Origin: Kitasatospora sp. NA04385
GTDB lineage: Bacteria > Actinomycetota > Actinomycetes > Streptomycetales > Streptomycetaceae
Direction of reading: 5' to 3'
DNA: 64,000 nt
NCBI RefSeq assembly: GCF_013364235.1
Contig: NZ_CP054919.1
Coordinates: 206,134 to 270,133 of the forward strand
The notes under the pieces were generated by a model. It saw only the letters and a list, made by a program, of their open reading frames with translations. It was not told the origin of the DNA and did not search any database. Within the stretch, counting starts at the first letter, position 1, and each line of letters opens with the position of its first letter. Both the position numbers and the translations under genes were made by a program. This document shows, piece after piece, positions 514 through 28,602 of the stretch.

Positions 514-590
514 CCGCCCCGCCTCCTGACCTCCCCCCACCCCCGGCCCGTTGCACCTCCCCTGACCGTCCACCCCGGAAGGGAACCCCC

Positions 591-5105: not shown

Positions 5106-5818
5106 TCGGGCTCTCTCCGAGCGGCTTCGTCCGTCAGGTGGTGGAGGTCGGCGGCGGCCTGGGCGAGCAGGGCGTGGACGGCGCGGGCGGCCGCCTCCGG
5201 CTCGCGGGCGCGCACCGCGTCGAGGACGGCCCGGTGGGCGGGGACGGCGTCGGAGCCGTGGTCGGAGCCGTGCACGAGGTGGTCGCGCACCCGCAGGCCG
5301 GCCTCGATCACGACCTCCATCCGGGTGAGGAGTTCGTTGTGGGCGGCGGCCAGCAGCGCGCGGTGGAAGGCGAGGTCGGCCTCGACCGCGGCCTGGGCGT
5401 CGTCGCCCGCGGCGGCCATCTGCCGCAGCGCGTCCTCCAGCGCGGCGAGGTCGGCCTCGTCGCGGCGCTCGGCGGCCAGCCGGGCGCCGGCCGGCTCGAC
5501 GATGGCGCGGACTTCGCCGAGGTTGTCGAGGAAGGCGGCGTCGGGGGTGCCCAGGCCCTGCCAGCGCAGCAGGTCGCCGTCCAGCAGGTTCCAGTCGGAG
5601 CGGGGCCGCACGAAGGTGCCCCGCTTCTGGCGGGAGTCGATCAGCCCCTTGGACGCCAGCACCCGCAGCGCCTCGCGCACGACGGTCTTGCTGACCCCGA
5701 GTTCCCGCTCGATCTGGTCGGGGGAGATCGAGTCGCCCGGGGCGTGGACGCCGCGCAGGATCCGTTCGCCGATGATCTCGACGGCCTGTCCGTGCAGTCC
5801 TCGGGCCGGCCGGTTCAT
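5102..5818 (-). CDS. FadR-subfamily GntR regulator (DgoR-like)
   Basis: A 238-residue protein. The N-terminal winged helix (about residues 5-75) carries the GntR signature GVSKTVVREALRVLASKGL. The C-terminal all-helical FCD domain (about 95-225) has the metal/effector residues typical of the family (DLAFHRALL, HRAVLDAV). It sits between the SDR and dgoD genes in one operon, with its stop overlapping the dgoD start. By analogy with DgoR, the effector is probably a sugar acid such as galactonate. The start is supported by a GGAGGAGAG ribosome site directly upstream. The target operator is probably in the 6651-6760 promoter region, but I could not define it. Confidence 0.9.
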   Translation of the reverse strand: MNRPARGLHGQAVEIIGERILRGVHAPGDSISPDQIERELGVSKTVVREALRVLASKGLIDSRQKRGTFVRPRSDWNLLDGDLLRWQGLGTPDAAFLDNLGEVRAIVEPAGARLAAERRDEADLAALEDALRQMAAAGDDAQAAVEADLAFHRALLAAAHNELLTRMEVVIEAGLRVRDHLVHGSDHGSDAVPAHRAVLDAVRAREPEAAARAVHALLAQAAADLHHLTDEAARREPE

Positions 5819-6650: not shown

Positions 6651-6841
6651 GCCACCACCGTAGCGCTTGTGATTAATTATGCAAATACCCGGCGATGAAA
6701 CGGGAGCCGAGCTGGGCCGCATGCTCATTCGTGCGCGGAAATCGCACTCTGTGAGCATCTATTGACGCGAATCGCCAACTAGGCTGCACTGGTGGGCAGT
6801 TCACCGACAAAGCCGACAGGTCCACACCGATGGAGGCGTCG
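6651..6841. promoter_or_regulatory. Divergent promoter region between the dgoD operon and the GH20 gene
   Basis: This 190-bp spacer is markedly richer in A/T than its surroundings. The stretch around 6667-6688 (TTGTGATTAATTATGCAA) carries a CATAAT -10-like hexamer reading toward the SDR operon. It could also hold an operator for the operon's FadR-type regulator, although I see no clean long palindrome. Toward GH20, TTGACG (6762-6767) and TAGGCT (6780-6785) are only 12 bp apart, so that pair is not a convincing promoter. A GGAGG at 6832-6836 is the GH20 ribosome site. Confidence 0.4.
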
Positions 6842-12480: not shown

Positions 12481-12511
12481 GGTGGTTCCTCTCGGTTTTG
12501 CGCACAATCAT

Positions 12512-12870: not shown

Positions 12871-13563
12871 TCAGGGACGGGGTGCGGCCGGCCCGAGCGT
12901 CCCGCGGAGCCACTGCTCCACGCCCGCGACGTGCACGCGGGCCCACGACTCGGCGAGGTCGGGCCGACGGGCCGCGATCGCGTCGTAGATGGCCCGGTGC
13001 TGTTCGAGGGTGCGCCGCACGGCGCCCTCCTCGGTCAGCCCGCGCCAGATCCGGGCGCGGGCGGTCGGCCCGGCGAGGCCCTCGATCAGCGAGCAGAGGA
13101 CCGAGTTGCCCGAGCCCACGGCGATCCGCCGGTGGAACTCGAGGTCGTTGGCCACGACCTCCTCCAGCGTGAGGTCCTCGCCGAGCTCGTCGAGCAGCCC
13201 GCGCAGGCCCGCCAGGTCCTCCTCCGACATCGTGCTCGCGGCCATGGCGGCGGCCGCGGGTTCCAGGATGCGCCGGACCTCGAGGAACTCCAGCACCGTG
13301 TCGTCCTGGTGGAAGTCCACGACGAAGCCGAGCGCCTCCATCAGCAGGCCCGGCTCCAGACTGGTGACGTAGGTGCCGTCCCCCTGGCGCACGTCGAGGA
13401 CCCGGATCAGCGACAGGGCCTTCACCGCTTCCCGCAGCGAGTTGCGGGACAGCCCCAGCCGCTCCGCCAGGTCGGCCTCCTTGGGAAGACGCGCACCGGG
13501 GGCGAGCTCCCCACTGGTGATCATCGACTTGATCTTCTCGATCGCCTCGTCCGTGACCGGCAT
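12871..13563 (-). CDS. FadR-subfamily GntR transcriptional regulator
   Basis: A 230-residue protein with an N-terminal winged helix (LGLSRNSLREAVKALSLIRVL) and an FCD ligand-binding domain (DLEFHRRIAVGSGN, then EQHRAIYDAI). It starts with MPVTDEAIEKIKSMI. It lies between the GH2 terminator and the GH95 gene on the same strand. Likely targets are the GH95 promoter, where a 15-bp palindrome is found, and perhaps its own promoter. The effector is unknown; sugar acids and 2-keto-3-deoxy sugar acids are usual for FCD regulators in such clusters. Confidence 0.9.
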   Translation of the reverse strand: MPVTDEAIEKIKSMITSGELAPGARLPKEADLAERLGLSRNSLREAVKALSLIRVLDVRQGDGTYVTSLEPGLLMEALGFVVDFHQDDTVLEFLEVRRILEPAAAAMAASTMSEEDLAGLRGLLDELGEDLTLEEVVANDLEFHRRIAVGSGNSVLCSLIEGLAGPTARARIWRGLTEEGAVRRTLEQHRAIYDAIAARRPDLAESWARVHVAGVEQWLRGTLGPAAPRP

Positions 13564-13698: not shown

Positions 13699-16600
13699 TC
13701 AGCCGAGCAGCCGGAGCTTCGCGGTGGCGCTGTAGTTGGCGGGCAGGCTGATCGCCGGGTCGGTGTAGTTGCCCCAGGCGAGGTCGGGGTAGTTGAGCTT
13801 GGAGCTGATGACGAGGTTGACGCCGGGCAGGGCGGCGTAGGGGTCGGGGGTGACGACCTCGAAGGCGTCGAGGACCACGTAGGTGTCGGCGGACGAGGCG
13901 TTCTTGGTGCCGGTCACCTTGATCTTGACCGTGTGCGGGCCGTCGGCGAGGCCGGTCTTCTCGAAGACGGTCTGGGCGAACTGCTTGCCGGGGCCGTACA
14001 GGTCGACCTGGGTGGGGGCGCCGCCGTCCACGGAGATCTCGGCGATGCCCTGGTTGGAGCTCCTGGGGGCGATCACCCGGATGCCGGTGCCGCGGAAGGC
14101 GGCGGTGGCGGTGTCGCCGCCGGTCCGGCTGAACGACTCGGTGCGGGCCAGGTCCCCGGAGGTCCAGCCCTGGGAGGAGTCGCCGTGGGTCCAGGCGCCG
14201 GTGTAGGTGACCTGTCCGGAGGCGTCGTCGATGATCGAGCTGACCACCTTGAAGCCGTCGATCAGGGCGTAGGTGCCGCTGGAGGCGCTGTTCTTGGTGC
14301 CGGTGCACTCGACCTTGACGGTGTGCTCGCCGTACGGGAGGGCGGCGCTGCGGAAGACCAGTACGCCCGGGGTCTTGCCGGGGCCGTAGAGGTCGACGGT
14401 GGCGACCTGGGTGCCGTCGATGGAGATCTTGACGATGCCGAGGTTGTTGGCGCGGGCCGAGTAGAGGCCGACGCCGGTGCCGGTGAAGGTGAGCTGGGCG
14501 TTGGCGCCGGTGGCGTTGCTGAACGACTCGGTGGAGAAGAGGTCGCCGTTGCTGTAGCCGCTCGACGGGTCGGCGTGCGTCCAGGCGCCGGTGTAGACGA
14601 TCTGGGACGAGGAGTCGTCGATGACGACGGGCGCGGCGGGTTCCAGGCGGACCGAGTCGCTGCCGTCGGACTCGACCTGCGCGCCGGGGCCGGAGGCTCC
14701 GGCGGTGGCCTTGGCGAGCCGGACGTTGGCCTTGGTGCTGCGGAAGTCGTTGGTCCAGTGGGCGGGGCTGTCCTTGCCGAACAGGAAGTAGCTGTGGGTG
14801 TCCTGGGACCACGGCCAGGTCGGTTCGGTGCGGTAGCCGTCGGTGCCGGAGGCGCGGTTCTTGGTGGCGGTGCCGGTGGCCCGGCCGATGTGGTCGGCGG
14901 GGTAGACCGTCCACTGGGCGTCGCGCTGCCAGGTCAGGGTGTCGGTGCCGTCGGGGAGGGTGTAGCGGATGCCGACGTCGCTGGGCGAGCCGGCGGGCGG
15001 GTTGGCGATGGTGTAGGTGGTGGTGAGCAGGCCCCGGCCGTCGATGGAGACCTTGATGGTGGTGTTGACCGGGCCGAACTGGCCGGTGAGGGTGACCACC
15101 GCCTGGCCGCCGGTGGTGGTGACGCTCGCCGAGCTGCCGGTCCACTGGCCGGGGGTGGTGCGGGAGATGATCAGGTCGGGGCCGCCGGTGAGGACGGTGG
15201 CGGCGCCGGCGGTGGCCTGGACCAGGCGCGCGGTGGCCTTGTCGAAGACCACGCTGAAGGGGGTGTCGACGCCGGTGACGGTGATCCGGCCGTCGGCGTC
15301 CTGGACGGTGGGGGTGGTGCCGCCGGGCGCGGTGAAAGCGGGCGTGGTGCGGGAGTTGAGCCACAGGCTGTAGTCGTCGACCACGGCGCCGGAGCGCGCG
15401 AAGGTCAGCCGCAGCGTGTCGCCCGCGGACCAGGCGCCGGCCGGGACGGTGAGCGTGCCGCTCTGCCGGGCGGCGACGCTGACGCCGGTGAGGGTGCCGG
15501 AGCGGCTGCCGATCTGCCAGGTGATGGTCAGTTCGGAGAGGTCGGTGTGGTCGTACCAGTTGGTGACCGGCACCGGGATCGCGCCGCCGGGGGTGAGCCC
15601 GGTCAGCACGCCGTCGGTGATCCGGACCGGCGAGAACGCCTTCTTGGTCAGCCAGAACTCCGGCTTGCGGCGGCGCCACAGGTCGATGACGCCCCACTCG
15701 CCGTAGCCGACCGGCCCGGAGTCGAGGTGGAAGACCTCGTCGATGGCGGCCCAGATCGCGCCGCCGACCACGCCGCTGGTGGTGCGGAACTTCTGGGCGT
15801 GCTTGGCGATGCTGTGGCCCCAGAAGTCCCGGGCGCCGGGGTCGGCCCGCAGGGTGCCGACGTTGTAGCACGGCACGTGGGCGAACTCGCCGTACTGGAT
15901 GGGCTGGTTGGCGTTGCCGTTGGAGTTGGTCAGGGTCGGGTAGTGGCCGCTGTAGACGTCGGTCTGGGTGCCGCCGTTCGACTGGCCCATGTCCTCGAAG
16001 ACGGTGGGCCGGGACGGGTCGGTCTGGTGCGAGTAGGTGTTCTCCTGGGCGAAGTTGGTGCCCATCCCGCTCTCGTTGCCGACCGACCACTCCACCACGC
16101 AGGCGTGGCTGCGGTCGCGCTCCAGCATCTCGGCGTACTGCGCCATGTACTGGTCGGTGTAGGCGGAGTTGTCGACGGTGCTCTGCTGGAAGCAGACCGG
16201 CGCCTCGACCTCGACGTACAGGCCCAGCTTGTCGGCCCAGTCCAGCAGCGCGGGGGTCGGCGGGTAGTGCGAGGTGCGGATGAAGTTGCAGTTCGCCTCC
16301 TTGTAGAGGCGGGCGGCCTGCTCCTCCTGGGCGGGGGTGGTGGAGCGGCCCAGGGTCTCGGTGATGCTGTGGTGGCAGACGCCCAGCAGGTGCACCGGCT
16401 TGCCGTTGACCAGCAGCTGGTTGCCCTGGACCTTGACCTGCCGGAAGCCGATCTGCCGGGTGACGGTCTGGGTCTGCCCCTGGGCCTGGAAGGTGGCCTT
16501 GAGCGTGTACAGGTTGGGGTGCTCGGCGTCCCACTTGCGCGGGGCGGTGACCGGGATCGCCACCGAGGCCTGCGGCGCGGTGGCGCTGACGGTGAGGCCG

Positions 16601-17424
16601 GCCGGGGAGAGCGCGACCTGCTGGCCGTCGGGGTCGGTCAGGGTCAGCGAGACGGTGCCGCTGGCGCCGGCCGGCAGCAGCGCGGCGGCGGCGGTGACGG
16701 TGAGGGTGGCGTTGGTGTAGGAGGAGTCGAAGGTGGTGTCGGCGTGCAGCCGGGTGAGGTAGGCGGCCGGCAGCGCCACCAGCGTCACGTCGCGCAGGAT
16801 GCCGCCGATGATGTGGTGCGCGTAGTTGGACTGCCCGGCGATGCTGGTGGGCTTGTCGGTGACGCCGAGGGTGACGGTGGCCTGCTGGCCGGGGGTGACC
16901 AGCGAGGTGATGTCGGCGTACCAGGTGGTGAAGCCGCCGTCGTGGGTGCGCACCAGGGTGCCGTTGACCCACAGCCGGGCGTAGTTGTAGACGCCGTCGA
17001 AGCGCAGCATGACGCGCCGGCCGGCGTAGTCGGCGGGGACGGTGACCTTGACGGAGTAGGCGCACTCGGTATCGGTGGGGACGGTCTGGCTCTGCAGGGC
17101 GGGCTCGCCCGGCACGTTGACCTGCGCCCAGGACGAGGTGTCGGTGCCGGTGGTCCAGAACGAGGCCGGCGGGGCGGTGGTGTAGCGCCAGCCCGAGGTG
17201 AGGGGGACCCGGGGGGTGGCGACACCGGAGACGGTGTCGGGCAGCGGCGGGATCTCGGGGGTGGCGGTGGCCGCGCCGGCGGGGGCGGCGAGGAACAGCC
17301 CGCCGGTCCCAACGGCGGTGAGCAGGCCGGCGGCGGCGAGGCCCTTCAGCGCGGCGCGGCGCGAGAAGTGGCCGTCGGCGGTGGAGTCGGCGGAGGTGGG
17401 GGCGGTGGGGCGGGGTGGCGTCAC
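13699..17424 (-). CDS. Secreted GH2 beta-galactosidase-type glycosidase with two tandem C-terminal modules
   Basis: A 1241-residue protein. It has a Tat signal (SRRAALKGLAAAGL), a sugar-binding jelly roll, an Ig-like domain and a TIM barrel. In the barrel the acid/base Glu lies in VGNESGMG (near residue 448) and the nucleophile Glu in YGEFAHVP (near 509), in the LacZ arrangement. Beta-sandwich domains follow. Two similar ~130-residue modules (about 930-1058 and 1060-1190) each begin with an IDD..QxxYTGAWTHxD motif and contain VDLYGPGK; they look like duplicated carbohydrate-binding modules. GTG 17424 has AGGAAAGG upstream, overlapping operator site A. The likely role is to release galactose (or a related beta-linked sugar) for the oxidative pathway. 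Confidence 0.88.
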   Translation of the reverse strand: MTPPRPTAPTSADSTADGHFSRRAALKGLAAAGLLTAVGTGGLFLAAPAGAATATPEIPPLPDTVSGVATPRVPLTSGWRYTTAPPASFWTTGTDTSSWAQVNVPGEPALQSQTVPTDTECAYSVKVTVPADYAGRRVMLRFDGVYNYARLWVNGTLVRTHDGGFTTWYADITSLVTPGQQATVTLGVTDKPTSIAGQSNYAHHIIGGILRDVTLVALPAAYLTRLHADTTFDSSYTNATLTVTAAAALLPAGASGTVSLTLTDPDGQQVALSPAGLTVSATAPQASVAIPVTAPRKWDAEHPNLYTLKATFQAQGQTQTVTRQIGFRQVKVQGNQLLVNGKPVHLLGVCHHSITETLGRSTTPAQEEQAARLYKEANCNFIRTSHYPPTPALLDWADKLGLYVEVEAPVCFQQSTVDNSAYTDQYMAQYAEMLERDRSHACVVEWSVGNESGMGTNFAQENTYSHQTDPSRPTVFEDMGQSNGGTQTDVYSGHYPTLTNSNGNANQPIQYGEFAHVPCYNVGTLRADPGARDFWGHSIAKHAQKFRTTSGVVGGAIWAAIDEVFHLDSGPVGYGEWGVIDLWRRRKPEFWLTKKAFSPVRITDGVLTGLTPGGAIPVPVTNWYDHTDLSELTITWQIGSRSGTLTGVSVAARQSGTLTVPAGAWSAGDTLRLTFARSGAVVDDYSLWLNSRTTPAFTAPGGTTPTVQDADGRITVTGVDTPFSVVFDKATARLVQATAGAATVLTGGPDLIISRTTPGQWTGSSASVTTTGGQAVVTLTGQFGPVNTTIKVSIDGRGLLTTTYTIANPPAGSPSDVGIRYTLPDGTDTLTWQRDAQWTVYPADHIGRATGTATKNRASGTDGYRTEPTWPWSQDTHSYFLFGKDSPAHWTNDFRSTKANVRLAKATAGASGPGAQVESDGSDSVRLEPAAPVVIDDSSSQIVYTGAWTHADPSSGYSNGDLFSTESFSNATGANAQLTFTGTGVGLYSARANNLGIVKISIDGTQVATVDLYGPGKTPGVLVFRSAALPYGEHTVKVECTGTKNSASSGTYALIDGFKVVSSIIDDASGQVTYTGAWTHGDSSQGWTSGDLARTESFSRTGGDTATAAFRGTGIRVIAPRSSNQGIAEISVDGGAPTQVDLYGPGKQFAQTVFEKTGLADGPHTVKIKVTGTKNASSADTYVVLDAFEVVTPDPYAALPGVNLVISSKLNYPDLAWGNYTDPAISLPANYSATAKLRLLG

Positions 17425-17436
17425 CGGAGTGCCTTT

Positions 17437-17449
17437 CCTAGCAGCTAAG
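17437..17449 (-). promoter_or_regulatory. Operator site A of the shared 13-bp motif (GH2 promoter)
   Basis: On the minus strand this reads CTTAGCTGCTAGG and overlaps the GH2 ribosome site. A second partial copy (CTGCTTAGAA on the minus strand, 17451-17460) is adjacent. The motif matches sites at 20303, 21093 and 21131, so the same repressor, probably the GntR protein at 20348-21046, should control this gene. Confidence 0.7.
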
Positions 17450-17560
17450 CTTCTAAGCAGATATAGGGGACGCGGGTCCCTGGCGGCAATACCCGTGCAG
17501 CGCCGATTTCCGGCAGCCTCCCGTCGCCCGAACTCCCTGCTCGGAGCGGATGCGGACATG

Positions 17561-17601
17561 CCTCCGACCGCCGCGGCAGGTCCTGCGGCGGCGGTCGGAG
17601 G
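17561..17601. terminator. Terminator of the lactonase operon
   Basis: Perfect 14-bp arms CCTCCGACCGCCGC (17561-17574) and GCGGCGGTCGGAGG (17588-17601) around a 13-nt loop, 28 bp downstream of the SMP-30 stop codon on the minus strand. Confidence 0.85.
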
Positions 17602-17629
17602 GTGGGGCTCCCCCGGGGTGCGGGGGTGG

Positions 17630-18502
17630 TCAGTGCAGGCGGAAGGCGGCTGCGGGGGGCGCCGCGGCGTCCACGGGGACGGCGAGGATCGACCCGGCGG
17701 GGCCGGCGTCGCCGCTCAGGCCGTGGCGGGCGGTGGTGACCAGCAGCAGGCCGCCCTCGGGCCGCAGGCAGACCGAGGTGGGCCGGGGGGTGGGCAGGCG
17801 CAGGGTGTCGAGCAGCGCGCCGTCGGGGTGGTAGCGGTGGACGGCGGCGCCGTCCCAGACCGCCACCCACAGGCAGCCCTCGGTGTCGACGGTCATGCCG
17901 TCGGGCGAGCCGGTGGCCAGGCGGGTGAACTCCTCGTTCCCGGTGGGCTCCCCGTCCGGGTCGAGGGTGAGGCGGTGGACGGTGCCGAGGGCGCTGTCGG
18001 CGAGGTAGAGCACGGTGGCGTCGGCGTTGAAGGCCGGGCCGTTGGCGACGGTCAGGCCGCCCAGCACCCGGTGCACCGAGCCGTCCGGGTCGGTGCGGTA
18101 GAGCGAGCCCGCGCCGGGGACGGCGCCGCCTTCGGACATGCTGCCGGCCCAGAAGCGTCCGGCCGGGTCGCAGACGCCGTCGTTCATCCGGACCGGGAAC
18201 GGGGAGCCGTCCTCCGGCCGGGCCAGCCAGCGCACCAGCCCGTGCGGGGTGAGCAGGGCGATGCCCGTCCCGGCGGCGGCGATCCAGTGGCCGGGGCGGT
18301 CGGCGAGCGGCGCGACCGCCCCGAGCGGGACGTCCAGGCGCAGCAGTTCCCGGGGGGTGTGCGGGGAGTCGGGCGGGAGTTCGAACAGCCGGCCGGTCGG
18401 GATGTCGACGAAGACCGGTCGGCCGTCGACCCAGCGGGCCCCCTCGGCGAGTTCGTAGTCGCCGGGGGCGTGGACGGCGGGGTGAGTCGGCTGCGGTGCC
18501 AT
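17630..18502 (-). CDS. SMP-30/gluconolactonase-family sugar lactonase
   Basis: A 290-residue six-bladed propeller protein with family signatures: EGARWVDGRPVFVDI (metal Glu), FPVRMNDGVCDPAGRFWAGSM, LTVANGPAFN (metal Asn) and TGSPDGMTVD (metal Asp). The family opens aldonolactones to aldonic acids using a divalent cation. It is the last gene of the aldolase-kinase-lactonase operon, 16 bp after the kinase. It would link a sugar 1-dehydrogenase to the sugar-acid dehydratases in this window. Confidence 0.92.
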   Translation of the reverse strand: MAPQPTHPAVHAPGDYELAEGARWVDGRPVFVDIPTGRLFELPPDSPHTPRELLRLDVPLGAVAPLADRPGHWIAAAGTGIALLTPHGLVRWLARPEDGSPFPVRMNDGVCDPAGRFWAGSMSEGGAVPGAGSLYRTDPDGSVHRVLGGLTVANGPAFNADATVLYLADSALGTVHRLTLDPDGEPTGNEEFTRLATGSPDGMTVDTEGCLWVAVWDGAAVHRYHPDGALLDTLRLPTPRPTSVCLRPEGGLLLVTTARHGLSGDAGPAGSILAVPVDAAAPPAAAFRLH

Positions 18503-18518
18503 GGGTGGTCTCCGGGGA

Positions 18519-19484
18519 TCAGCGCAGGGTGGTGCCGGCGGGCCGGTCCAGGAGGTCGAGGTCGTCGCGGACGGGCAGGCCCTCCCAGTCGCCGCGGGTG
18601 GCGACCGCGAAGGCGCCGGTGGCGGTGGCCCGGTGCAGGCGGGCCGCCGGGTCGAGCCCGTCCAGGGTGGCGGAGAGGTAGCCGGCCACGAAGGCGTCGC
18701 CGGCGCCGATCACGTCGGTGACGGGCACCCGGCGGGCCGCGGCGGTGACGGTGCCGTCGGCGGTGGTGACGCTGGCGCCGTCGCCGCCCCGGGTGAGGAC
18801 CACCTCGCGGCGGCCCTGGGCGAGCAGCGCGGCGACGGCGCCGTCCTCGTCGAGGCCGGGCTCGTCGCAGACCAGGTGCAGTTCGTCGGCGGAGGCGACC
18901 AGGACGTCGGCGGACCGGGCCAGCGGCCGCAGCACCTCCCGGGCCCGGACCGGACTCCACAGCCGGGCCCGGTAGTTGACGTCCAGGCAGACCAGGATGC
19001 CGAGCGCGCGGGCCCGTTCGGCGGCGGCCAGGACCGCCTCGGCGGCGGACTCGCTCAGCGCCGGGGTGATACCGGTCAGGTGCAGGATCCGCACGGCGGG
19101 GTCCAGCGCGGGCAGCACGTCGTAGTCCCGGAGCGCGGACCCGGCGGAACCGGTGCGGTAGTAGCCGACCCGGGCCAGGTCGCCGATGCCGTTCTCGCGG
19201 ATCAGCAGGCCGGTGGGCCGCCCGGTCCGGTCGGTGCGGGCGTGGGTGGTGTCGACGCCCTCGGCCCGCAGGGTGCGCAGCACCAGGGCGCCGAACGCGT
19301 CGTCGCCCACCGCGCCGACCCAGGCGGCCCGGTGGCCGAGCCGGGCCAGGCCGATGGCGACGTTGGACTCCGCGCCGGCCACGGACAGCTCCATCGCGGG
19401 GCCCAGCTTGATCGGCCCGGTGGCCCGCAGGGCGGCCATGGCCTCCCCGACGGTGACGACCTCGGGCGCGGTGGCGGCGCTCAC
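18519..19484 (-). CDS. PfkB-family sugar kinase (2-keto-3-deoxy-gluconate/galactonate kinase type)
   Basis: A 321-residue ribokinase-fold protein: GGAEsN-like substrate signature AGAESNVAIGLARLG, and the GAGD catalytic/anion-hole motif in DVIGAGDAFVAGYL. Pairing with a KDPG-type aldolase points to 2-keto-3-deoxy sugar acids as substrate (KDG/KDGal kinase). The start is a GTG at 19484 whose GTGA overlaps the stop of the aldolase gene by 4 bp, showing tight coupling. Confidence 0.92.
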   Translation of the reverse strand: MSAATAPEVVTVGEAMAALRATGPIKLGPAMELSVAGAESNVAIGLARLGHRAAWVGAVGDDAFGALVLRTLRAEGVDTTHARTDRTGRPTGLLIRENGIGDLARVGYYRTGSAGSALRDYDVLPALDPAVRILHLTGITPALSESAAEAVLAAAERARALGILVCLDVNYRARLWSPVRAREVLRPLARSADVLVASADELHLVCDEPGLDEDGAVAALLAQGRREVVLTRGGDGASVTTADGTVTAAARRVPVTDVIGAGDAFVAGYLSATLDGLDPAARLHRATATGAFAVATRGDWEGLPVRDDLDLLDRPAGTTLR

Positions 19485-20104
19485 GCGGCGACCTCCTCGG
19501 CGAGCGCGGTGCGCCAGGCGGCGATCCGGGCGCGCAGCGGGCCGAGGTCGCCGGTGTCGGCGGCGTCCCCGATCAGCGGGGAGCCGACGCCGACGGCGAC
19601 CGCGCCGGCGGCCAGGTAGGCCCGGGCGGCGCTCGCGTCGACGCCGCCCACCGGGACGAACGGGACGTCCGGGAAGGGGGCGCGCAGGGCGGCGAGGTAG
19701 TCGGGGCCGCCGAAGGAGGCGGGGAAGAGCTTGACGGCGGTGGCCCCGTGCTCGACGGCGTCCATCACCTCGCCCGGGGTGAGGGCCCCGGCGAGGACGG
19801 GCAGCGCGAAGGGCGCGGAGCGGCGCAGGTCGGTGCCCAGGCCGGGGGTGACCAGGAAGTTCGCCCCGGCGTCGGCGGCGCGGGCGGCGGCGGTGGCGGT
19901 CAGCACGGTGCCCGCGCCGAGCAGGGCGTCGGGGCCGAGCTCGCGGCGGGCCCGGTCGATCACCCACGGGGCGTCGGGGGTGGTGAACGACACCTCGGCG
20001 GCGGTGATGCCCTCCTCGGCGAGGGTGAGCACCGTGCGCAGGGCGGCGTCGCGGTCCTTCCCGCGCACGATGGCGATCGTCCGGTACGGCAGGTCGGTGA
20101 ACAT
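19481..20104 (-). CDS. KDPG/KDPGal-type class I aldolase
   Basis: A 207-residue protein of the KDPG aldolase family: IAIVRGKD, catalytic Glu in AAEVSFTTPDA, FLVTPGL, Schiff-base Lys in TAVKLFPASFGGPDYL and VGGVDASAARAYLAAG. It splits phosphorylated 2-keto-3-deoxy sugar acids into pyruvate and glyceraldehyde 3-phosphate. It leads the operon with the kinase and lactonase. ATG 20104 has AAGGGA upstream. The ~200-bp leader runs up to operator site B near 20303; I see nothing else in it. The galacto substrate is inferred from dgoD and the GH2 enzyme. Confidence 0.9.
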   Translation of the reverse strand: MFTDLPYRTIAIVRGKDRDAALRTVLTLAEEGITAAEVSFTTPDAPWVIDRARRELGPDALLGAGTVLTATAAARAADAGANFLVTPGLGTDLRRSAPFALPVLAGALTPGEVMDAVEHGATAVKLFPASFGGPDYLAALRAPFPDVPFVPVGGVDASAARAYLAAGAVAVGVGSPLIGDAADTGDLGPLRARIAAWRTALAEEVAA

Positions 20105-20302
20105 GGCGGGTCCCTTGGGTGGTGGCGCGGCAGCGGCCGGAGCGGGGGCGGCGGCCGGGGCCGGAGGGTGGCCGGGCGGGCGGTCACGGGCACGGGCCGG
20201 TGCGGGCCGGTCGCGGTGCGGGGGCACGGGGGCCTGGCGTGGATGTCCGGTCCGCCGGAGCGCTGGGGTGCACCGGCGGACCCGACCCTTTACTTATAGC
20301 TG

Positions 20303-20315
20303 CTTAGCAGCCTAG
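20303..20315 (+). promoter_or_regulatory. Operator site B of the shared 13-bp motif (aldolase operon)
   Basis: CTTAGCAGCCTAG. With the adjacent bases it forms a perfect 13-bp palindrome GCTGCTTAGCAGC (20299-20311). It lies between the stop-proximal end of the regulator gene and the aldolase operon, about 200 bp upstream of the aldolase start, where the promoter is expected. Confidence 0.7.
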
Positions 20316-20347
20316 TTGCCAAGGTCTCCGCCGTCGCGGCGGTGCGC

Positions 20348-21046
20348 TCACAGCAGGCCGAGGTCGCGGCTGGTCTCCTCCAGGTGGCCGACCATCGTCG
20401 CCGCGGCCCGTTCGGCGTCGCCCGAGGCGATGGCGTCCAGGATGATCCGGTGCGCCTCGACCGTGTCGTCCTGGCCGCTGCCGCGCCGCTGCCGGCCCCG
20501 GTAACTGGCCCGCCGGGCCTCCAGCAGGGCGTTGTTCATGGCCGCCAGGATGAACGAGAAGACCTCGGAGGAGGCCAGTTCGGCCACCGCCCGGTGGAAG
20601 GCCAGGTCGGCGGCGACGAACGCCTCGCTGTCCTCGGCCGACGCGCGCATCGCCTCCAGGGCCCGCGCGGCCCCGACGACGGAGCCCTGGCCGGCGGCGA
20701 TCCGGGTCGCGGCGCGGCGGGCGAGTTCGCCCTCTATCACCCGGCGGGTGTCCAGCAGGTCGCGCACGTCCATCGAGTTCTGGTTGAGCCGGAACTCCAG
20801 GATCTGCCCCAGCACCTCCGGGCTGGGGACGGCGACCCGGGCCCGCCGGCCCTGGCTGGAGGCCAGCACGCCGCGGGCCACCAGGATCCGGATGGCCTCC
20901 CGGACGACCAGCCGGTTCACCTCGTGGCGTTCGGAGAGTTCGCCCTCGGAGGGGATCTCGTCACCCTCCCGCAGGCGCCGCTGGGCGATCTCCCCGATGA
21001 TCTCCCGGACGACGAGGTCGCTCAGAGTCTCCCTCGCGATGGTCAT
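20348..21046 (-). CDS. FadR-subfamily GntR regulator, probable master repressor of the sugar-acid regulon
   Basis: A 232-residue protein: winged helix with SERHEVNRLVVREAIRILVARGVL, then an FCD domain (DLAFHRAVAELASS...EAHRIILDAI). It is divergent from the dehydratase-transport operon. Site C lies 47 bp upstream of its own ATG and sites A, B and D upstream of neighbouring units, so autoregulation and control of all three units are inferred. The inducer is unknown, probably a sugar acid or 2-keto-3-deoxy acid of the pathway. Confidence 0.9.
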   Translation of the reverse strand: MTIARETLSDLVVREIIGEIAQRRLREGDEIPSEGELSERHEVNRLVVREAIRILVARGVLASSQGRRARVAVPSPEVLGQILEFRLNQNSMDVRDLLDTRRVIEGELARRAATRIAAGQGSVVGAARALEAMRASAEDSEAFVAADLAFHRAVAELASSEVFSFILAAMNNALLEARRASYRGRQRRGSGQDDTVEAHRIILDAIASGDAERAAATMVGHLEETSRDLGLL

Positions 21047-21092
21047 GGGGCCACATCCCCTTTCGTTCGAACGTGCCGGAGCGGGCCCCGAG

Positions 21093-21105
21093 CCTAGCTG
21101 CTAAG
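21093..21105 (-). promoter_or_regulatory. Operator site C of the shared 13-bp motif
   Basis: CCTAGCTGCTAAG on the + strand; the minus strand reads CTTAGCAGCTAGG, identical to site A except for one central A/T. It lies in the promoter region of the GntR gene starting at 21046 and 38 bp from site D. Confidence 0.7.
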
Positions 21106-21123
21106 AAGTTATGAAGAGAAGCA

Positions 21124-21143
21124 TTGACAGCTTAGCTGCCAGG
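21124..21143 (+). promoter_or_regulatory. -35 element overlapping operator site D (dehydratase operon)
   Basis: A consensus -35 TTGACA (21124-21129) is followed directly by site D CTTAGCTGCCAGG (21131-21143), which also contains the palindrome CAGCTTAGCTG (21128-21138). A -10 is not obvious (CACGAT at 21148, 18-bp spacing, is possible). A protein bound to D would cover the promoter, so repression is expected. Confidence 0.65.
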
Positions 21144-21311
21144 TACCACGATCAAGCCACGTCCCCGGCGGCCCACCGCCGCACCCGCCCCGGGTGCGGA
21201 ACCCGCCGTCCGCCGGCCCCCTTCCGAGGTCCGGAACCCGAGCACTTCTACGAGGAGGCGCGCACCGATGCGCCGACAGCACGCCGCAGCACCCCGCCAG
21301 GGCGGTCAGTC

Positions 21312-23033
21312 ATGAGCCCCCTGCGCAGTTCCACCTGGTGGGACGACCCCGGCAAGGCGGGCTTCATCGCCCGGCACCACATGCGCCAGCTCGGCCTCAC
21401 CCGCGACCAGCTGCGCGGCAAGCCCGTGGTGGGCATCTGCAACAGCTGGTCGGAACTGACCCCGTGCAACGCCCACCTGCGCACCCTCGCGGAGTCGGTC
21501 CGCCGCGGGATCACCGCCGCCGGCGGGCTGGCCCTGGAGTTCCCGACCATGTCGATCGGCGAGCCGCTGATGCGGCCCACGTCGATGATGTTCCGCAACC
21601 TGATGAGCATGGACGTCGAGGAGACGATCCGGGCCAACCCGCTGGACGCCGTCGTCCTGCTCGGCGGCTGCGACAAGACCCTCCCCGCCCAGCTGATGGG
21701 CGCGGCCAGCGTCGACCTGCCCGCCATCGCGCTGTCCGGCGGCCCCATGCTCACCGGCCGTTTCCGCGGCAAGACGGTCGGCTCGGGCACCGACATCTGG
21801 AAGATGAGCGAGGACCTGCGGGCCAAGCGCATCACCCAGGACGACTTCGACGAGTTCGAGGGCTGCCTGGCCCGCTCGGCCGGCCACTGCATGACGATGG
21901 GCACGGCCTCCACCATGGGCTGCGTCACCGAGGCGCTCGGCCTGTCGCTGCCCGCCGCCGCCGCCCTGCCGGCCGCCGACGCCCGCCGCGCCCAGCTCGC
22001 CGAGCAGTCCGGCGCCCGCGCCGTCGAGCTGGCCCGCGAGGGGCTGCGCCCCTCCGACCTGCTCACCCGGGAGGCGTTCACCAACGCCGTGGTCGTCAAC
22101 GCGGCCATCGGCGGCTCCACCAACGCCGTCCTGCACCTGCTCGCCATCGCCGGCCGGGTCGGCGTCCCGCTGGCCCTCGAAGACATCGACGAGATCGGCC
22201 GCCGCGTCCCGCTGCTCGCCGACCTGATGCCCAGCGGCCGCTTCCTGATGGAGGACTTCGCCTACGCCGGCGGCCTGCCCGCCCTGATGGCCGAGCTCGG
22301 CGACCTGCTGGACCTGAGCGCGCCCACCGTCACCGGCCGCACCCTGGGCGAGAACCTCGCCGGGCACCAGGTCTGGGACCGCGAGGTGATCCGCCCGCTG
22401 GACAACCCCGTCCAGAGCGCCGACAACGGCACCGCCGTGCTGCGCGGCAACCTGGCCCCCGGCGGCGCCGTCCTCAAGCAGTCCGCCGCCTCCCCCGAAC
22501 TGCTCCACCACCGCGGCCCGGCCCTGGTCTTCGACAGCATCGAGGAGTACCTGCGCGCCGCCGACGACCCGGAGCTGGCGGTCGACGCCGACACCGTCCT
22601 GGTGGTGCGCAACCTCGGCCCGCGCGGCTACCCGGGCATGCCCGAGCTCGGCAACCTGCCGCTGCCCGCCAAGCTGCTCGCCCAGGGCGTCACCGACATG
22701 GTGCGGATCTCCGACGCCCGGATGAGCGGCACCGCCTACGGCACCGTCGTCCTGCACGTGGCGCCCGAGGCCGCCGTCGGCGGCCCGCTCGCCCTGGTCC
22801 GCACCGGCGACACCGTCGAACTCGACGTCGCCGCCCGCACCCTGCACCTGGACGTCGACCCGGGCGAACTGCTCGCCCGCCGCACCGCCTGGACGCCCCC
22901 GCCCCCTCCCGCCCAGGGCGAGCGCGGCTGGACCCGGCTGTACGTCGAGCGCGTCCTGCAGGCCGACCAGGGCGTCGACCTGGACTTCCTGGTCGGCCGC
23001 AGCGGCGACCAGCCCGGAAAGGCCCCCTTCTGA
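21312..23033 (+). CDS. IlvD/Edd-family sugar-acid dehydratase (arabinonate/xylonate/gluconate type)
   Basis: A 573-residue protein, the usual length of the pentonate/hexonate branch. The three [2Fe-2S] cysteines are at about residues 52 (TPCN), 120 (GGCDKTLP) and 193 (GHCMTMGTAS). Their spacing of 68 and 73 equals that recalled for the characterised L-arabinonate dehydratase (Cys59/127/200). It also has NAAIGGSTNAVLHLLAIA and RMSGTAYGTVVLH. It converts an aldonic acid to its 2-keto-3-deoxy acid. ATG 21312 begins the homology; the longer upstream reading crosses the promoter and operators. Its stop overlaps the next start (TGATG). The substrate (L-arabinonate, D-fuconate or galactonate) cannot be fixed from sequence. 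Confidence 0.92.
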   Translation: MSPLRSSTWWDDPGKAGFIARHHMRQLGLTRDQLRGKPVVGICNSWSELTPCNAHLRTLAESVRRGITAAGGLALEFPTMSIGEPLMRPTSMMFRNLMSMDVEETIRANPLDAVVLLGGCDKTLPAQLMGAASVDLPAIALSGGPMLTGRFRGKTVGSGTDIWKMSEDLRAKRITQDDFDEFEGCLARSAGHCMTMGTASTMGCVTEALGLSLPAAAALPAADARRAQLAEQSGARAVELAREGLRPSDLLTREAFTNAVVVNAAIGGSTNAVLHLLAIAGRVGVPLALEDIDEIGRRVPLLADLMPSGRFLMEDFAYAGGLPALMAELGDLLDLSAPTVTGRTLGENLAGHQVWDREVIRPLDNPVQSADNGTAVLRGNLAPGGAVLKQSAASPELLHHRGPALVFDSIEEYLRAADDPELAVDADTVLVVRNLGPRGYPGMPELGNLPLPAKLLAQGVTDMVRISDARMSGTAYGTVVLHVAPEAAVGGPLALVRTGDTVELDVAARTLHLDVDPGELLARRTAWTPPPPPAQGERGWTRLYVERVLQADQGVDLDFLVGRSGDQPGKAPF

Positions 23034-24013
23034 TGAGCGCGACCGACCCGACCGACCCGACCGGCCCCGACCGGCCCGGGGCCGCGCACCTGCTGCGCGG
23101 CGTGATGCCGGTGCTCGAAGTGCCGTTCACCGACGACGGCGACCTCGACCCCGACGGCTTCGACCGGGTGGTGCGCCACGTCCTGGACACCGGCGTCAGC
23201 GCCGTCATGTTCCCCGGCTTCGCCAGCGAGTTCCACAAGCTCTCCGACGCCGAGCGGGCACTGCTCACCCGCCGCCTGCTCGACCTGACCGGCGCCCGGC
23301 CCGACGTGGCGGCCGTGGTCTCGATCCCCGACCACGCCACCCGGCTCGCCGTCCGGCGCGCCACCGAGGCCGTCGAGGCCGGTGCGGACGCGATCAACCT
23401 GCTGCCGCCGCACTTCCTCGGGCCGTCGGCCGCCGAGGTCCGCCGGCACGTCACCGCGGTGCTGACCGCCGTCGCCCCCGTCCCGGTGATCCTCCAGTAC
23501 GCGCCCGCCCAGACCGGTTCCTCGTTCACCGCCGACGGGCTGCGCGAGCTGGCCGAGGAGCACCCCAACCTGGTCGCGGTCAAGATCGAGACCGCGCTGC
23601 CCGGCCGCCTCGCCGAGGACCTGGCCGGCGGCACCCCCGCGCTGAGCGCCTTCGTCGGCTACGCCGGCCTGCAACTGGCCGACGGCCTGCGGCGCGACAT
23701 CGCCGGGGTGCAGCCGGGCTGCTCCTTCACCGAGGTCTACCAGCGGATATGGGACCTCTGGCACGATGGCGGGCACGACGACGCGCTGCGGCTGCACGCC
23801 CGACTCGTCCCGTACCTCGCGTACTGGATGCAGGAGGTCGAGCTGATCATCGCGGTCGAGAAGCTCATCTCGTTCCGCCGGGGTCTGATCGGCAGCCCGT
23901 ACTGCCGCCGCCCCGCGCGCGCCCTGGACGCGCAGGAGACCGCCGGCGTCGACCGGTTCCTCGCCGAGTTCGGCGAGTTCCTGAACCCCGTTCGGAACGG
24001 AAGCAGCACATGA
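23033..24013 (+). CDS. DHDPS/NAL-family enzyme (2-keto-3-deoxy sugar-acid aldolase or dehydratase)
   Basis: A 326-residue class I aldolase-fold protein: RGVMPVLEVPFTDDG at the N-terminus, INLLPPHFLGPS, Tyr in LQYAPAQTG and the Schiff-base Lys in VAVKIETALPG near residue 184. In oxidative sugar pathways this family either cleaves 2-keto-3-deoxy acids or dehydrates 2-keto-3-deoxy-arabinonate. It overlaps the dehydratase by one base and the SDR by four, so it very probably acts on the dehydratase product. The first ~20 residues are a low-complexity Asp/Pro/Thr extension. Confidence 0.88.
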   Translation: MSATDPTDPTGPDRPGAAHLLRGVMPVLEVPFTDDGDLDPDGFDRVVRHVLDTGVSAVMFPGFASEFHKLSDAERALLTRRLLDLTGARPDVAAVVSIPDHATRLAVRRATEAVEAGADAINLLPPHFLGPSAAEVRRHVTAVLTAVAPVPVILQYAPAQTGSSFTADGLRELAEEHPNLVAVKIETALPGRLAEDLAGGTPALSAFVGYAGLQLADGLRRDIAGVQPGCSFTEVYQRIWDLWHDGGHDDALRLHARLVPYLAYWMQEVELIIAVEKLISFRRGLIGSPYCRRPARALDAQETAGVDRFLAEFGEFLNPVRNGSST

Positions 24014-24765
24014 TCGACCTCTCCGGCCACACCGTCCTCGTCACCGGCGCCGCCCGGGGCATCGGCGCCGCCGTCGCGACCGCCCTGGTCGGCGCCGGGG
24101 CCCGGGTCGGCCTGCTCGACATCGACGGCGAGGGCGCCGCCCGGCTCGCCGAGCGGCTCGGCCCCGACACCGCCTCGGCCGCCTGCGACATCACCGACGA
24201 GACGCAGGTCGCCTCGGCCGTCGCCGCCCTGCGCGAGCGGCTCGGGCCCGCCACCGGCCTGGTCAACAACGCCGGCCGCAACTCCTACGCCGACCCGGTC
24301 GCCATGACGGTCGACCAGTGGGAGGAGGTGTTCGGCGTCGACCTCAAGGGCGCCTGGCTGGTGGCCCGCGCCGTCCTGCCCGACCTGCTCGACCGGGGCA
24401 GCGGCTCGATCGTCAACATCGCTTCCATGCACGCCTCGCTCACCTGCCCCGGCATGTTCCCGTACGCGGCCGCCAAGTCCGGCCTGGTGGGCCTGACCCG
24501 CAGCCTCGCCCTGGAGGTCGGCCCCCGGGGCGTGCGGGTGAACGCGGTCAGCCCCGGCTACATCGAGACCGACCTGCTCGCCGAGTACTTCGCCCAGAAC
24601 CCCCCGCAGGTCCGCCAGGACGCGCTGGACAAGCACATCCTGGGCCGCCTCGGCACCCCCGGGGACGTCGCCGCCGTGGTGGCCTTCCTGCTCTCCGACC
24701 TCGCCGGGTTCGTCACCGGCGCGGACTGGCCCGTCGACGGCGGCGTGTCCGCCCGTTTCGCCTGA
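24010..24765 (+). CDS. SDR-family sugar dehydrogenase
   Basis: A 251-residue classical SDR: TGAARGIGAAVA cofactor loop, NNAGR, Ser in NIASMHAS, YAAAKSG Tyr-x3-Lys, and GADWPVDGG near the end. It lies between the DHDPS-family enzyme and the sugar importer in one operon, starting inside the upstream stop (ATGA). A sugar 1-dehydrogenase (galactose, fucose or arabinose) or a 2-keto-3-deoxy acid dehydrogenase are the main options. Confidence 0.88.
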   Translation: MIDLSGHTVLVTGAARGIGAAVATALVGAGARVGLLDIDGEGAARLAERLGPDTASAACDITDETQVASAVAALRERLGPATGLVNNAGRNSYADPVAMTVDQWEEVFGVDLKGAWLVARAVLPDLLDRGSGSIVNIASMHASLTCPGMFPYAAAKSGLVGLTRSLALEVGPRGVRVNAVSPGYIETDLLAEYFAQNPPQVRQDALDKHILGRLGTPGDVAAVVAFLLSDLAGFVTGADWPVDGGVSARFA

Positions 24766-24860: not shown

Positions 24861-25910
24861 ATGTCCCTCACCCCCTCCCGGAGAGCCGCCGCCCTCGGCG
24901 CCGCCGCCCTGGTCTCCTCCCTCGCCCTGACCGGCTGCTCCACCGGCAAGGAGTCCACCTCCTCCGCCGGCAGCGTGGCCACCGTCAGCGGGAAGATCTC
25001 CATGACGTACCTGCAGAAGCAGGGCGACCAGGAGTACTTCATCGGCGAGGCGGAGGGCGCCAAGGCGAAGGCCGCCGAGCTGGGCGTCGACCTGAAGGTC
25101 GTCAACCTCGGCAACGACGCCAACAAGACCATCAGCGAGGTGCAGTCGGCCATCGCGCAGAAGAGCAACGGCCTGATCATCGTGGTGCCGGACCCGGCGG
25201 TGGGCCCGCAGGTCGTGCAGACCGCGAAGGACGCCAAGGTCGCGCTGCTGACCTCGGACGACCAGATCTGCGCCACCGGCCCGGACCCGGCCTCCTGCGA
25301 CAAGGCCGGGCTCATCCCCCGGATCGGCTTCTCCGGCCAGCAGATGGGCGGCGAGGTCGGCAAGCGCGCCGCCGAGGAGTTCAAGAAGGCGGGCTGGAAC
25401 GCGGCCGACACCCGGATCGTCTCCGCCTGGAAGCAGGACGTCACCGTCTGCGGCGACCGGGTCAACGCGGCCAACGACGCGTTCAACGCCGGTGCGGGCG
25501 CCCAGGTGCAGAAGATCGACGTCGCCACCGACAACACCCCCACCGGCGCCCAGGACAAGATCGCCGCGACCGTCACCGCCAACCCCGGCGTCAAGCACTG
25601 GATCGTCTGGGGCTGCAACGACGAGAACGTGCAGGGCGGCGTCACCGCGCTCGCCAACGCCGGCTTCAAGGCCGACGACGTGATCGGCGTCGGCCTCGGC
25701 GCCTACCTGGCCTGCAAGGACTGGCAGAGCACCACCCCCACCGGCATGAAGGCCGCGCTGTTCATCAACGGCAAGGACGTCGGCGCGCTCGCCGTCCAGA
25801 CCATGTACGACCGCCTCAAGAACGGCAAGGACTTCCCGGCCGAGGCGTTCGCCCCCACCACCATGGTCGACGCCACCACCTGGAAGAGCACCGGCGCCAC
25901 CTGCAGCTGA
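24861..25910 (+). CDS. Sugar ABC transporter substrate-binding lipoprotein (AraF-like)
   Basis: A 349-residue lipoprotein with lipobox LTGCS near residue 26 and a periplasmic-binding-protein type I fold. Several segments match the E. coli arabinose-binding protein AraF: PGVKHWIVWGCNDENVQGGV and GFKADDVIGVGLGAYLACKDW. It also has KISMTYLQKQGDQEYF at the first beta strand. Ligand is probably a free monosaccharide such as L-arabinose, galactose or fucose. The second ATG (24861) is preferred because GGAG stands 6 bp upstream; the first ATG (24849) contributes that site. Confidence 0.9.
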   Translation: MSLTPSRRAAALGAAALVSSLALTGCSTGKESTSSAGSVATVSGKISMTYLQKQGDQEYFIGEAEGAKAKAAELGVDLKVVNLGNDANKTISEVQSAIAQKSNGLIIVVPDPAVGPQVVQTAKDAKVALLTSDDQICATGPDPASCDKAGLIPRIGFSGQQMGGEVGKRAAEEFKKAGWNAADTRIVSAWKQDVTVCGDRVNAANDAFNAGAGAQVQKIDVATDNTPTGAQDKIAATVTANPGVKHWIVWGCNDENVQGGVTALANAGFKADDVIGVGLGAYLACKDWQSTTPTGMKAALFINGKDVGALAVQTMYDRLKNGKDFPAEAFAPTTMVDATTWKSTGATCS

Positions 25911-26011: not shown

Positions 26012-27579
<1,568 letters not shown>

Positions 27580-27583
<4 letters not shown>

Positions 27584-28602
27584 CCACCACCACCCGGCCG
27601 GCGGCGCCCACCGAGCCCACCGGCACCACCGCCCGCTCCCTGCTGGCCTCGGTCGGCGGGCAGAACCTCAGCCTGATCGGCGCGCTCGCCGTCGTCCTCG
27701 CCCTGTTCGGCGTGCTGAACGACAACTACCTCAGCCTGTCCAACATGCAGGTCATCGCCGAAGCCGCCACCATCACCGGCCTGCTCGCCGTCGTCCAGAC
27801 CGTCGTCATCATCTGCGGCGGCCTCGACATCTCCGTCGGCTCGCAGGCCGGCGTCGCCTCCGTCGTCTCCGCGATGGCCTTCACCTCCAGCGGCGCCAAC
27901 CCCTTCGCGGGCATGGCCGCCGCCGTCGCCGTCGGCGTCGCGATCGGCGTCCTCAACGGCGTCATCATCGTCTACGGGCGCGTCAACCCCACCATCGCCA
28001 CCCTCGCCGGCCTCGCCGCCTACAAGGGCCTGGCCCAACTCATCTCCAACGGCCGCGCCCAGGGCTACGTCCTCAACGACGACGTGTTCATCTTCCTCGG
28101 CCGCGGCAAGATCGCCGGACTGCCCGTGATGGTCTGGATCCTCATCCTCGCCGCCGTCGCCGTCCACCTGCTGCTCAAGTACACCGACATCGGCCGGAAC
28201 ATCTACGCGATCGGCGGCAACGACACCGCCGCCCGCCTCGCCGGCATCAACATCAACAAGTACCTGATCGCCGTCTACGGCCTGATCGGCGCCGTCGCCG
28301 CCGTCGCCGGCATCCTGCTCACCGCCCGCACCGGCTCCGGCCAGCCCACCTCCGGCAGCGAGGGCCTGGAACTCAAGGCCATCACCGCCGCCGCCCTCGG
28401 CGGCTGCGCCCTCAAGGGCGGCAAGGGCGGCATCGGCGGCACCCTGCTCGCCGTCGCCCTGCTCGGCTGCCTGGAGAACGGCCTCACCGTCCAGGGCATC
28501 AACGCCTTCTGGCAGAACGTCGCCCAGGGCGCCCTCCTCGTCGCCGCCGTCGTCATCCAGCAGCGCCGCAGCGGCGAACGCGCCGTCGGCCTACCCGCCT
28601 GA
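27580..28602 (+). CDS. Sugar ABC transporter permease (AraH/RbsC type)
   Basis: A 340-residue integral membrane protein with about ten hydrophobic segments and the CUT2 permease signatures GGLDISVGS and GRNIYAIGGNDTAARLAGI. It completes the importer with the lipoprotein and the double ATPase. It is the last gene of the operon; a strong terminator begins 35 bp after its stop. Confidence 0.95.

Follow-up and report, generated by a model that had tools for sequence, protein, structure and literature searches.

In the 64,000-nucleotide stretch of the Kitasatospora sp. NA04385 genome that was analysed here (contig NZ_CP054919.1, positions 206,134 to 270,133; the window), a 13-bp motif is found at the promoters of a glycoside hydrolase family 2 (GH2) gene, an aldolase-kinase-lactonase operon, a GntR-type regulator gene (20348-21046) and a dehydratase-ABC (ATP-binding cassette) transporter operon. 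We propose that the four sites are one conserved operator that is likely bound by the GntR protein encoded at 20348, which would thereby repress its own gene and three neighbouring units for galactoside use. Judged from the sequence, the probability of this proposal is about 0.78, and the 20348 protein is most likely an autoregulated repressor of the FadR subfamily. The initial annotation had described a local sugar-acid regulon under this protein. The regulon is supported by genome-wide specificity, by conservation in K. indigofera and by the co-occurrence of motif and regulator homologue across genera and in another family. The word local did not survive, given remote operators in two relatives (G880 and G163), and sugar-acid proved too narrow, the secreted GH2 being the most constant target. 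A regulon of beta-galactoside release, galactose/arabinose-type uptake and oxidative catabolism is the better supported term. The operators and the regulator are as follows.

17437..17457, minus strand: operator array A, the 13-mer at 17437-17449 (0 mismatch) and an overlapping copy at 17445-17457 (1 mismatch), 8 bp apart
20295..20323, minus strand: operator array B, three 13-mers (20295, 20303, 20311) that overlap at 8-bp steps
21093..21105, minus strand: operator C, within the leader of the regulator gene, from the motif search
21123..21143, plus strand: operator D, the 13-mer at 21131-21143 and an upstream 8-bp unit containing TTGACA (21124-21129)
20348..21046, minus strand: GntR/FCD regulator of the FadR subfamily (Pfam GntR and FCD), proposed binder of all four operators

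The four 13-mers reported earlier are present without mismatch at 17437-17449 (minus strand), 20303-20315 (plus), 21093-21105 (minus) and 21131-21143 (plus). The exact pattern CTTAGCWGCYWRG has 4 copies in the 8,400,742-base genome, all within the locus and at the promoters that had been named. When up to 2 mismatches are allowed, the window contains 16 matches against 3.47 expected. Thirteen of these belong to the four sites, counting overlapping copies and reverse reads of the palindrome; the other three stand alone (28462, 35440 and 55493). The dgoD and GH95 promoters carry no match in the motif search of the window, as had been noted before. The 13-mer is palindromic (CTTAGC-W-GCTAAG), a feature absent from the initial annotation, and with one mismatch allowed the palindromic form CTWAGCWGCTWAG matches four genomic places, none of them outside this locus.

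Few of the genomes searched encode a homologue of the 20348 protein. Such homologues were found in 2 of 70 Kitasatospora genomes, in 3 of 394 family genomes (E 1e-62), in 6 of 392 genomes of the genus g10 (E 1e-55) and in 4 of 394 class genomes (E 1e-55); a tblastn search of plasmids was used solely to reach four more loci. The operator recurs around homologues of 48-93% identity. Around 19 homologue loci, 16 of them positive, there are 43 palindrome matches with up to 2 mismatches versus 2.2 expected, an expectation that comes from a first-order Markov simulation of the loci themselves (20 per locus), the loci being related by descent. In K. indigofera the four sites are found at the same promoters; the source species falls in the genus of K. 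indigofera, Kitasatospora, and not in Streptomyces. Genome G163 encodes a 72% homologue in a locus where GH2, regulator and ABC transporter are reordered and from which dehydratase and aldolase are missing, and its GH2 and ABC promoters both bear the operator. Genome G545 belongs to another family and has a 49% homologue; an exact palindrome lies about 3.5 kb from the regulator and is the only match of that genome at up to one mismatch. The 3.7-kb stretches of the distant-homologue loci L033-L035 contain no site, and 20-kb stretches of the same three genomes contain the exact palindrome of G545, an array in G585 and a doubtful match in G478. The GH2 operator is within about 90 bp upstream of the gene in all eight loci whose GH2 match begins no later than residue 18. 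GH2 and the intergenic region between the SDR dehydrogenase and regulator genes are the constant core of the regulon.

The initial annotation had raised the concern of many unrelated genomic copies, and this was followed up in the source genome, with its 4 copies all at the locus, and in the family genomes; the outcome did not overturn the regulon. The exact pattern is present in 20 of 394 family genomes. These are the source genome (4 copies), K. indigofera (4, one in an unrelated place), G163 (two places) and 17 of the remaining 391 (20 places). At 21 loci outside the cluster no 20348 homologue is encoded within 1.5 kb, save one 32% match, and that protein is a better match (48%) to the protein encoded at 12871 in the window.

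The 13-mer is the core of a larger array of 8-bp-phased CTWAG units with the unit sequence CTWAGCWG. Sites A and B are overlapping arrays with this 8-bp period (17445; 20295 and 20311), which the initial annotation had likewise not described. The phasing was measured on 28 operators hand-chosen from the window and its relatives, excluding the four K. indigofera sites, and the set was reduced to 20 by a limit of 60% flank identity; core positions were thus selected and flanking positions were unselected. Over a background of 2.32 matching positions in 8, the 8 bases preceding the core agree with CTWAGCWG at 4.95 (z 9.8), and those following it agree with the mirrored unit at 4.45 (z 7.2). Thirteen of the 20 non-redundant sites have one or more good third units in phase (at least 6 of 8 positions), and out-of-phase offsets gave 0 or 1. 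The resemblance of the flanking units and the third in-phase units therefore point to an extended operator of about 29 bp, CTTRRCAG-CTTAGCWGCTAAG-CTGYYAAG. Additionally, 10 of the 20 non-redundant sites, and 17 of the full set of 28, have TTGNCA joined directly to the core, on either strand.

It may be that one dimer spans two CTWAG half-sites with centres 8 bp apart, which is the 13-bp core, and that the neighbouring unit in phase can take up a second dimer. The alternative that the 8-bp arrays are one extended palindrome of core and wings under a single dimer, not a multi-dimer platform, has a chance only a little short of even. The flanking units are mirror-symmetric (CTTRRCAG and CTGYYAAG) as in a 29-bp palindrome, and the 20348 protein is without the N-terminal extension that mediates cooperativity of NanR (PMC8012715, in excerpt). 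The resemblance of the flanking units to the core unit and the four consecutive units of site B speak for several dimers instead, and 29 bp would be a long footprint for one dimer of the FadR type.

The 20348 protein has the architecture of the FadR subfamily, with Pfam matches to GntR (46.9 bits) and FCD (79.0 bits) that are both above cut-off. NanR (6on4) is its closest solved relative by sequence and also the top Foldseek match of its structural model. Throughout the clade its DNA-reading residues remain N44-R45-L46-V/A47. Conservation also extends to the FCD metal ligands, with D147, H151 in 60 of 61, H199 in 61 of 61 and H221 in 60 of 61 aligned sequences, an alignment that includes the other GntR proteins of the window. 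Position 28 of the helix-turn-helix (HTH) is presumably the equivalent of FadR residue 35, based on our reading of the alignment. No arginine is found at this position in the 61 aligned sequences, where it is Gly in 48 and otherwise Ser, Ala or Asn, with 3 gaps. An arginine there was tried as a discriminator of the window's three GntR proteins and dropped, because none of the three has it. In the FadR subfamily, Arg at HTH position 28 (FadR residue 35 in the numbering of the paper) contacts G, and operators are described as palindromes with TKGT-N3-ACMA boxes (PMC4494728, in excerpt). The operator described here is a palindrome of FadR-like size with the half-site CTTAGC/GCTAAG and is without GT or AC boxes, so it departs from the TKGT/ACMA pattern. 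BioR and NanR are named exceptions to that consensus within the subfamily (same excerpt). Because such exceptions exist, the missing boxes lower the typicality of the 20348 protein and not its membership.

Three distinct FCD-GntR genes are found within 16 kb of the window (5102-5818, 12871-13563 and 20348-21046). On plasmid NBC_00841 a 67% homologue of the 5102 protein is encoded between a transporter gene and a KDPG aldolase gene, a position that suggests a second regulator for transporter and aldolase genes; this hints at interlocking regulators among the FCD-GntR genes. A paralogue 70% identical to the 20348 protein is present in both Kitasatospora genomes (G000 C1:82193-82885, L026 and L028; L030:5326-6018). 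About 155 bp upstream of the paralogue gene, in G000 and in K. indigofera, CCTGGCAGCATAGCTTCCAGG occurs in phase; it was rejected as an operator with 3 mismatches from the palindrome, and in G000 it sits inside a long hairpin that is maybe a terminator.

The main binder could be another FCD-GntR protein, namely that of 12871-13563 beside GH2, that of 5102-5818 or the paralogue at 82193, and we consider this improbable. All three are of the same protein type as the 20348 protein, a 43% homologue of the 12871 protein is encoded near the G163 locus, and the paralogue, which shares the DNA-reading residues N44 R45 L46 V47, could act in trans on these operators. Different DNA-reading residues are present in the 12871 protein (SRNS) and the 5102 protein (SKTV), and near the paralogue gene there is no site, either exact or with 2 mismatches. 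The motif tracks the 20348 homologue, whereas relatives of the 12871 protein above 40% identity are found only in the window and in G163 among the stretches of about 20 kb that were examined.

The placement of the sites relative to promoter elements bears on what the 20348 protein does. Array B occupies the spacer of a TTGGCA (20322-20317)-18 bp-TATAAG (20298-20293) promoter of the aldolase-kinase-lactonase operon, and operator D occupies that of a TTGACA-17 bp-CACGAT (21147-21152) promoter of the dehydratase-ABC operon. Both arrangements are kept in K. indigofera, and TTGACA-17-CACGAT is repeated at the transporter promoter and at the 2.1-Mb promoter of G163. Array A is just downstream of a TATATC -10-like element (17460-17465) and extends into the GH2 ribosome site AGGAAAGG (17432-17439, minus strand), which site A overlaps by three bases; the overlap itself had been noted before. 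Operator C is just downstream of a CATAAC sequence (21113-21108). An overlap of site D with the -35 TTGACA had also been claimed. It holds for the extended 8-bp-phased operator, which contains TTGACA, and not for the 13-mer, one base ahead of which the hexamer ends (21124-21129). This geometry is partly hand-read and was followed in a promoter-pair scan of 14 hand-picked promoters, with the strand at divergent sites chosen by the analyst. Since the operators are in the spacer (B, D) or past a -10-like element (A, C), binding would exclude RNA polymerase or block the start of transcription, and the geometry suggests steric repression combined with autoregulation.

Slightly less probable than a different binder is activation or dual regulation by the 20348 protein, in which case the position of site D would serve to aid RNA polymerase. 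The operator adjoins the -35 element at D and in several relatives, where TTGNCA is fused to it as described above, and activators use this position too. The spacer and downstream positions are repressor positions, however, and sugar-acid regulators of the FadR subfamily such as DgoR repress (PMC7674646, in excerpt). Strongly disfavoured is the view that the motif is repeated by chance or clonally and plays no part in regulation: orthologous loci share descent, so that their sites are not fully independent, but the motif persists, with differing flanks, in loci of separate arrangement, in trans and in another family, and the 20 sites with flank identity below 60% keep the core.

Several observations weigh against the proposed operator and its repressor. 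With 2 mismatches allowed, a site is missing from three of the 19 loci, namely the Embleya plasmid locus (54%) and the two paralogue loci (70%), and the single 2-mismatch match of G478 may be due to chance. The divergent dehydratase/transporter promoter has no site at the same threshold in L044, L045, L050 and L098, so the content of the regulon is not fixed. Site D deviates from the palindrome CTWAGCWGCTWAG at 2 positions. In the scan of 14 promoters no hexamer pair was found for site C, and 17380-21330 was devoid of promoters in a stricter scan, for which the -10 element must end in T. The identity of the sugar is read from protein families alone.

In some relatives the operators are far from the regulator. 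G880 has a GH2-ABC-dehydratase cluster at 283-303 kb with operators upstream of GH2 and SDR. The closest (70%) regulator is at 7.6 Mb and a 51% homologue is about 36 kb from the GH2 cluster, so it is solely the closest homologue that is far. Two further places in G880 (C1:57848 and 92968, mirrored at 9031378 and 9066497) have one-mismatch single copies symmetric to the chromosome ends, as in terminal inverted repeats, and no regulon genes of the query set are found around 57848 and 92968. An in-frame stop apparently interrupts the sugar-binding protein gene behind the operator in G880 (L047:10365-11684). The gene of a 665-residue protein at 2.10 Mb of G163, far from the regulator at 9.07 Mb, has upstream of it an exact palindrome joined to TTGACA. 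This protein has no sequence match in Pfam, NCBIfam or PDB. Genes of relatives with 60-66% identity follow the operator in G961, G987, G877 and plasmid NBC_01445; in G880 one follows a weaker array. The operator is found at six of six close members of the family (counting G163) and at none of three distant members (37-39% identity). Members of about 660 residues with the operator directly upstream are listed below.

L097:10006-12003
L046:7799-9763
L048:7618-9585
L049:10168-12126
L053:11393-13417

Where a source name is shown, the family is hypothetical or unnamed. Its predicted fold is like that of GH42 beta-galactosidases. It was not found in the window's own genome. In relatives the operator also precedes GH101 genes. 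At L071:4604-7668 and L072:12277-15310, in genomes of another family, a sulfatase gene stands on one side of the operator and a divergent gene for a sugar-binding protein on the other, an arrangement that hints at sulfated galactosides.

The genes of the regulon in the window and their predicted functions are listed below.

13699..17424, minus strand: secreted, beta-galactosidase-like GH2 with a GTG start codon (17424) and, on reading of the sequence, a twin-arginine-type signal
17630..18502, minus strand: lactonase of the SMP-30/gluconolactonase family, by family match
18519..19484, minus strand: PfkB sugar kinase, 2-keto-3-deoxygluconokinase/galactonokinase-like, by family match
19481..20104, minus strand: KDPG/KDPGal aldolase, by family match
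21312..23033, plus strand: IlvD/EDD dehydratase, L-arabinonate/galactonate dehydratase-like (PRK06131 subfamily above cut-off, close to L-arabinonate dehydratase)
23033..24013, plus strand: DHDPS-family aldolase/dehydratase, by family match
24010..24765, plus strand: SDR dehydrogenase, predicted aldose 1-dehydrogenase, by family match
24861..25910, plus strand: sugar-binding protein whose nearest solved relatives are L-arabinose-binding proteins (AraF)
26012..27583, plus strand: AraG-like ABC ATPase (best model AraG, below cut-off)
27580..28602, plus strand: AraH-like permease (best model AraH, below cut-off)

Dehydrogenase, lactonase, dehydratase, kinase and aldolase families are co-encoded (17630-24765), which matches an oxidative galactose pathway of the De Ley-Doudoroff type. 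Together with the beta-galactosidase-like GH2, the gene set fits an oxidative D-galactose route, and L-arabinose or another aldose is possible. GH2 would free D-galactose (or L-arabinose) and the AraFGH-type transporter would import the released sugar. The SDR dehydrogenase may then oxidise the sugar to a lactone that the SMP-30 protein opens, the IlvD-type dehydratase would form a 2-keto-3-deoxy acid, and the kinase and KDPG aldolase would convert it to pyruvate and glyceraldehyde-3-phosphate. The operator would be released when a sugar acid of the pathway, D-galactonate or its 2-keto-3-deoxy derivative, occupies the FCD pocket with its metal. The conserved FCD metal ligands, as in galactonate-binding DgoR, favour a sugar acid as the effector, galactonate being one candidate. 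The genes of GH59 (156-3044), GH20 (6830-8875) and GH95 (9640-12507) flank the regulon and are without the operator; with GH2 they look like a cluster that degrades galactose- and fucose-containing glycans.

The closest known systems are regulators of the FadR subfamily from Escherichia coli. NanR also uses short, closely spaced repeats and represses sugar catabolism, and three of its dimers assemble on (GGTATA)3 via an N-terminal extension (PMC8012715, in excerpt). Tandem short repeats at close fixed spacing are found here too, in an 8-bp phase. In contrast to NanR, the units are CTWAG and not GGTATA, the 32-residue N-terminal extension is absent (residue 3 aligns with NanR residue 27), and the effector of NanR is N-acetylneuraminic acid (Neu5Ac). 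DgoR binds D-galactonate through a metal, its pocket residues D146, H150 and H195 are equivalent in position to the FCD metal ligands described above, and it autoregulates a sugar-acid operon from an operator that overlaps the promoter (PMC7674646, in excerpt), which is the arrangement predicted here. DgoR differs in that it is counted among the GT-N3-AC-site regulators (PMC4494728, in excerpt), whereas the operator here has no GT/AC boxes and the regulon includes secreted glycosidases and an ABC importer. From what partial descriptions give, the FadR-type GntR proteins SCO1678 (the gluconate regulator) and HypR of Streptomyces coelicolor are alike in being streptomycete regulators of sugar-acid or amino-acid operons, and differ in substrate. 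Among the matches listed from open-licence PubMed Central texts, no paper on the operator or the regulon was found by title or abstract, nor by the motif strings.

Tentatively, and with less than even confidence, we suggest that a clade of FadR-type actinomycete repressors reads a non-canonical 8-bp-phased CTWAG operator that doubles as promoter spacer, that it assembles several dimers without a NanR-type extension, and that it defines a galactoside-scavenging regulon including a widespread unannotated GH42-like family. The regulator-operator pair is conserved in Streptomycetaceae and seen in a second family. It departs from the textbook GntR/FadR DNA code and gives a clear prediction of dimer-array assembly on an 8-bp spacing. 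The operator is of practical use in searches as well: through it, genes of GH2, GH101 and sulfatases came to light, as did a family of "hypothetical proteins" whose predicted fold resembles beta-galactosidases. A galactoside-utilization regulon of soil actinomycetes thus becomes directly testable.

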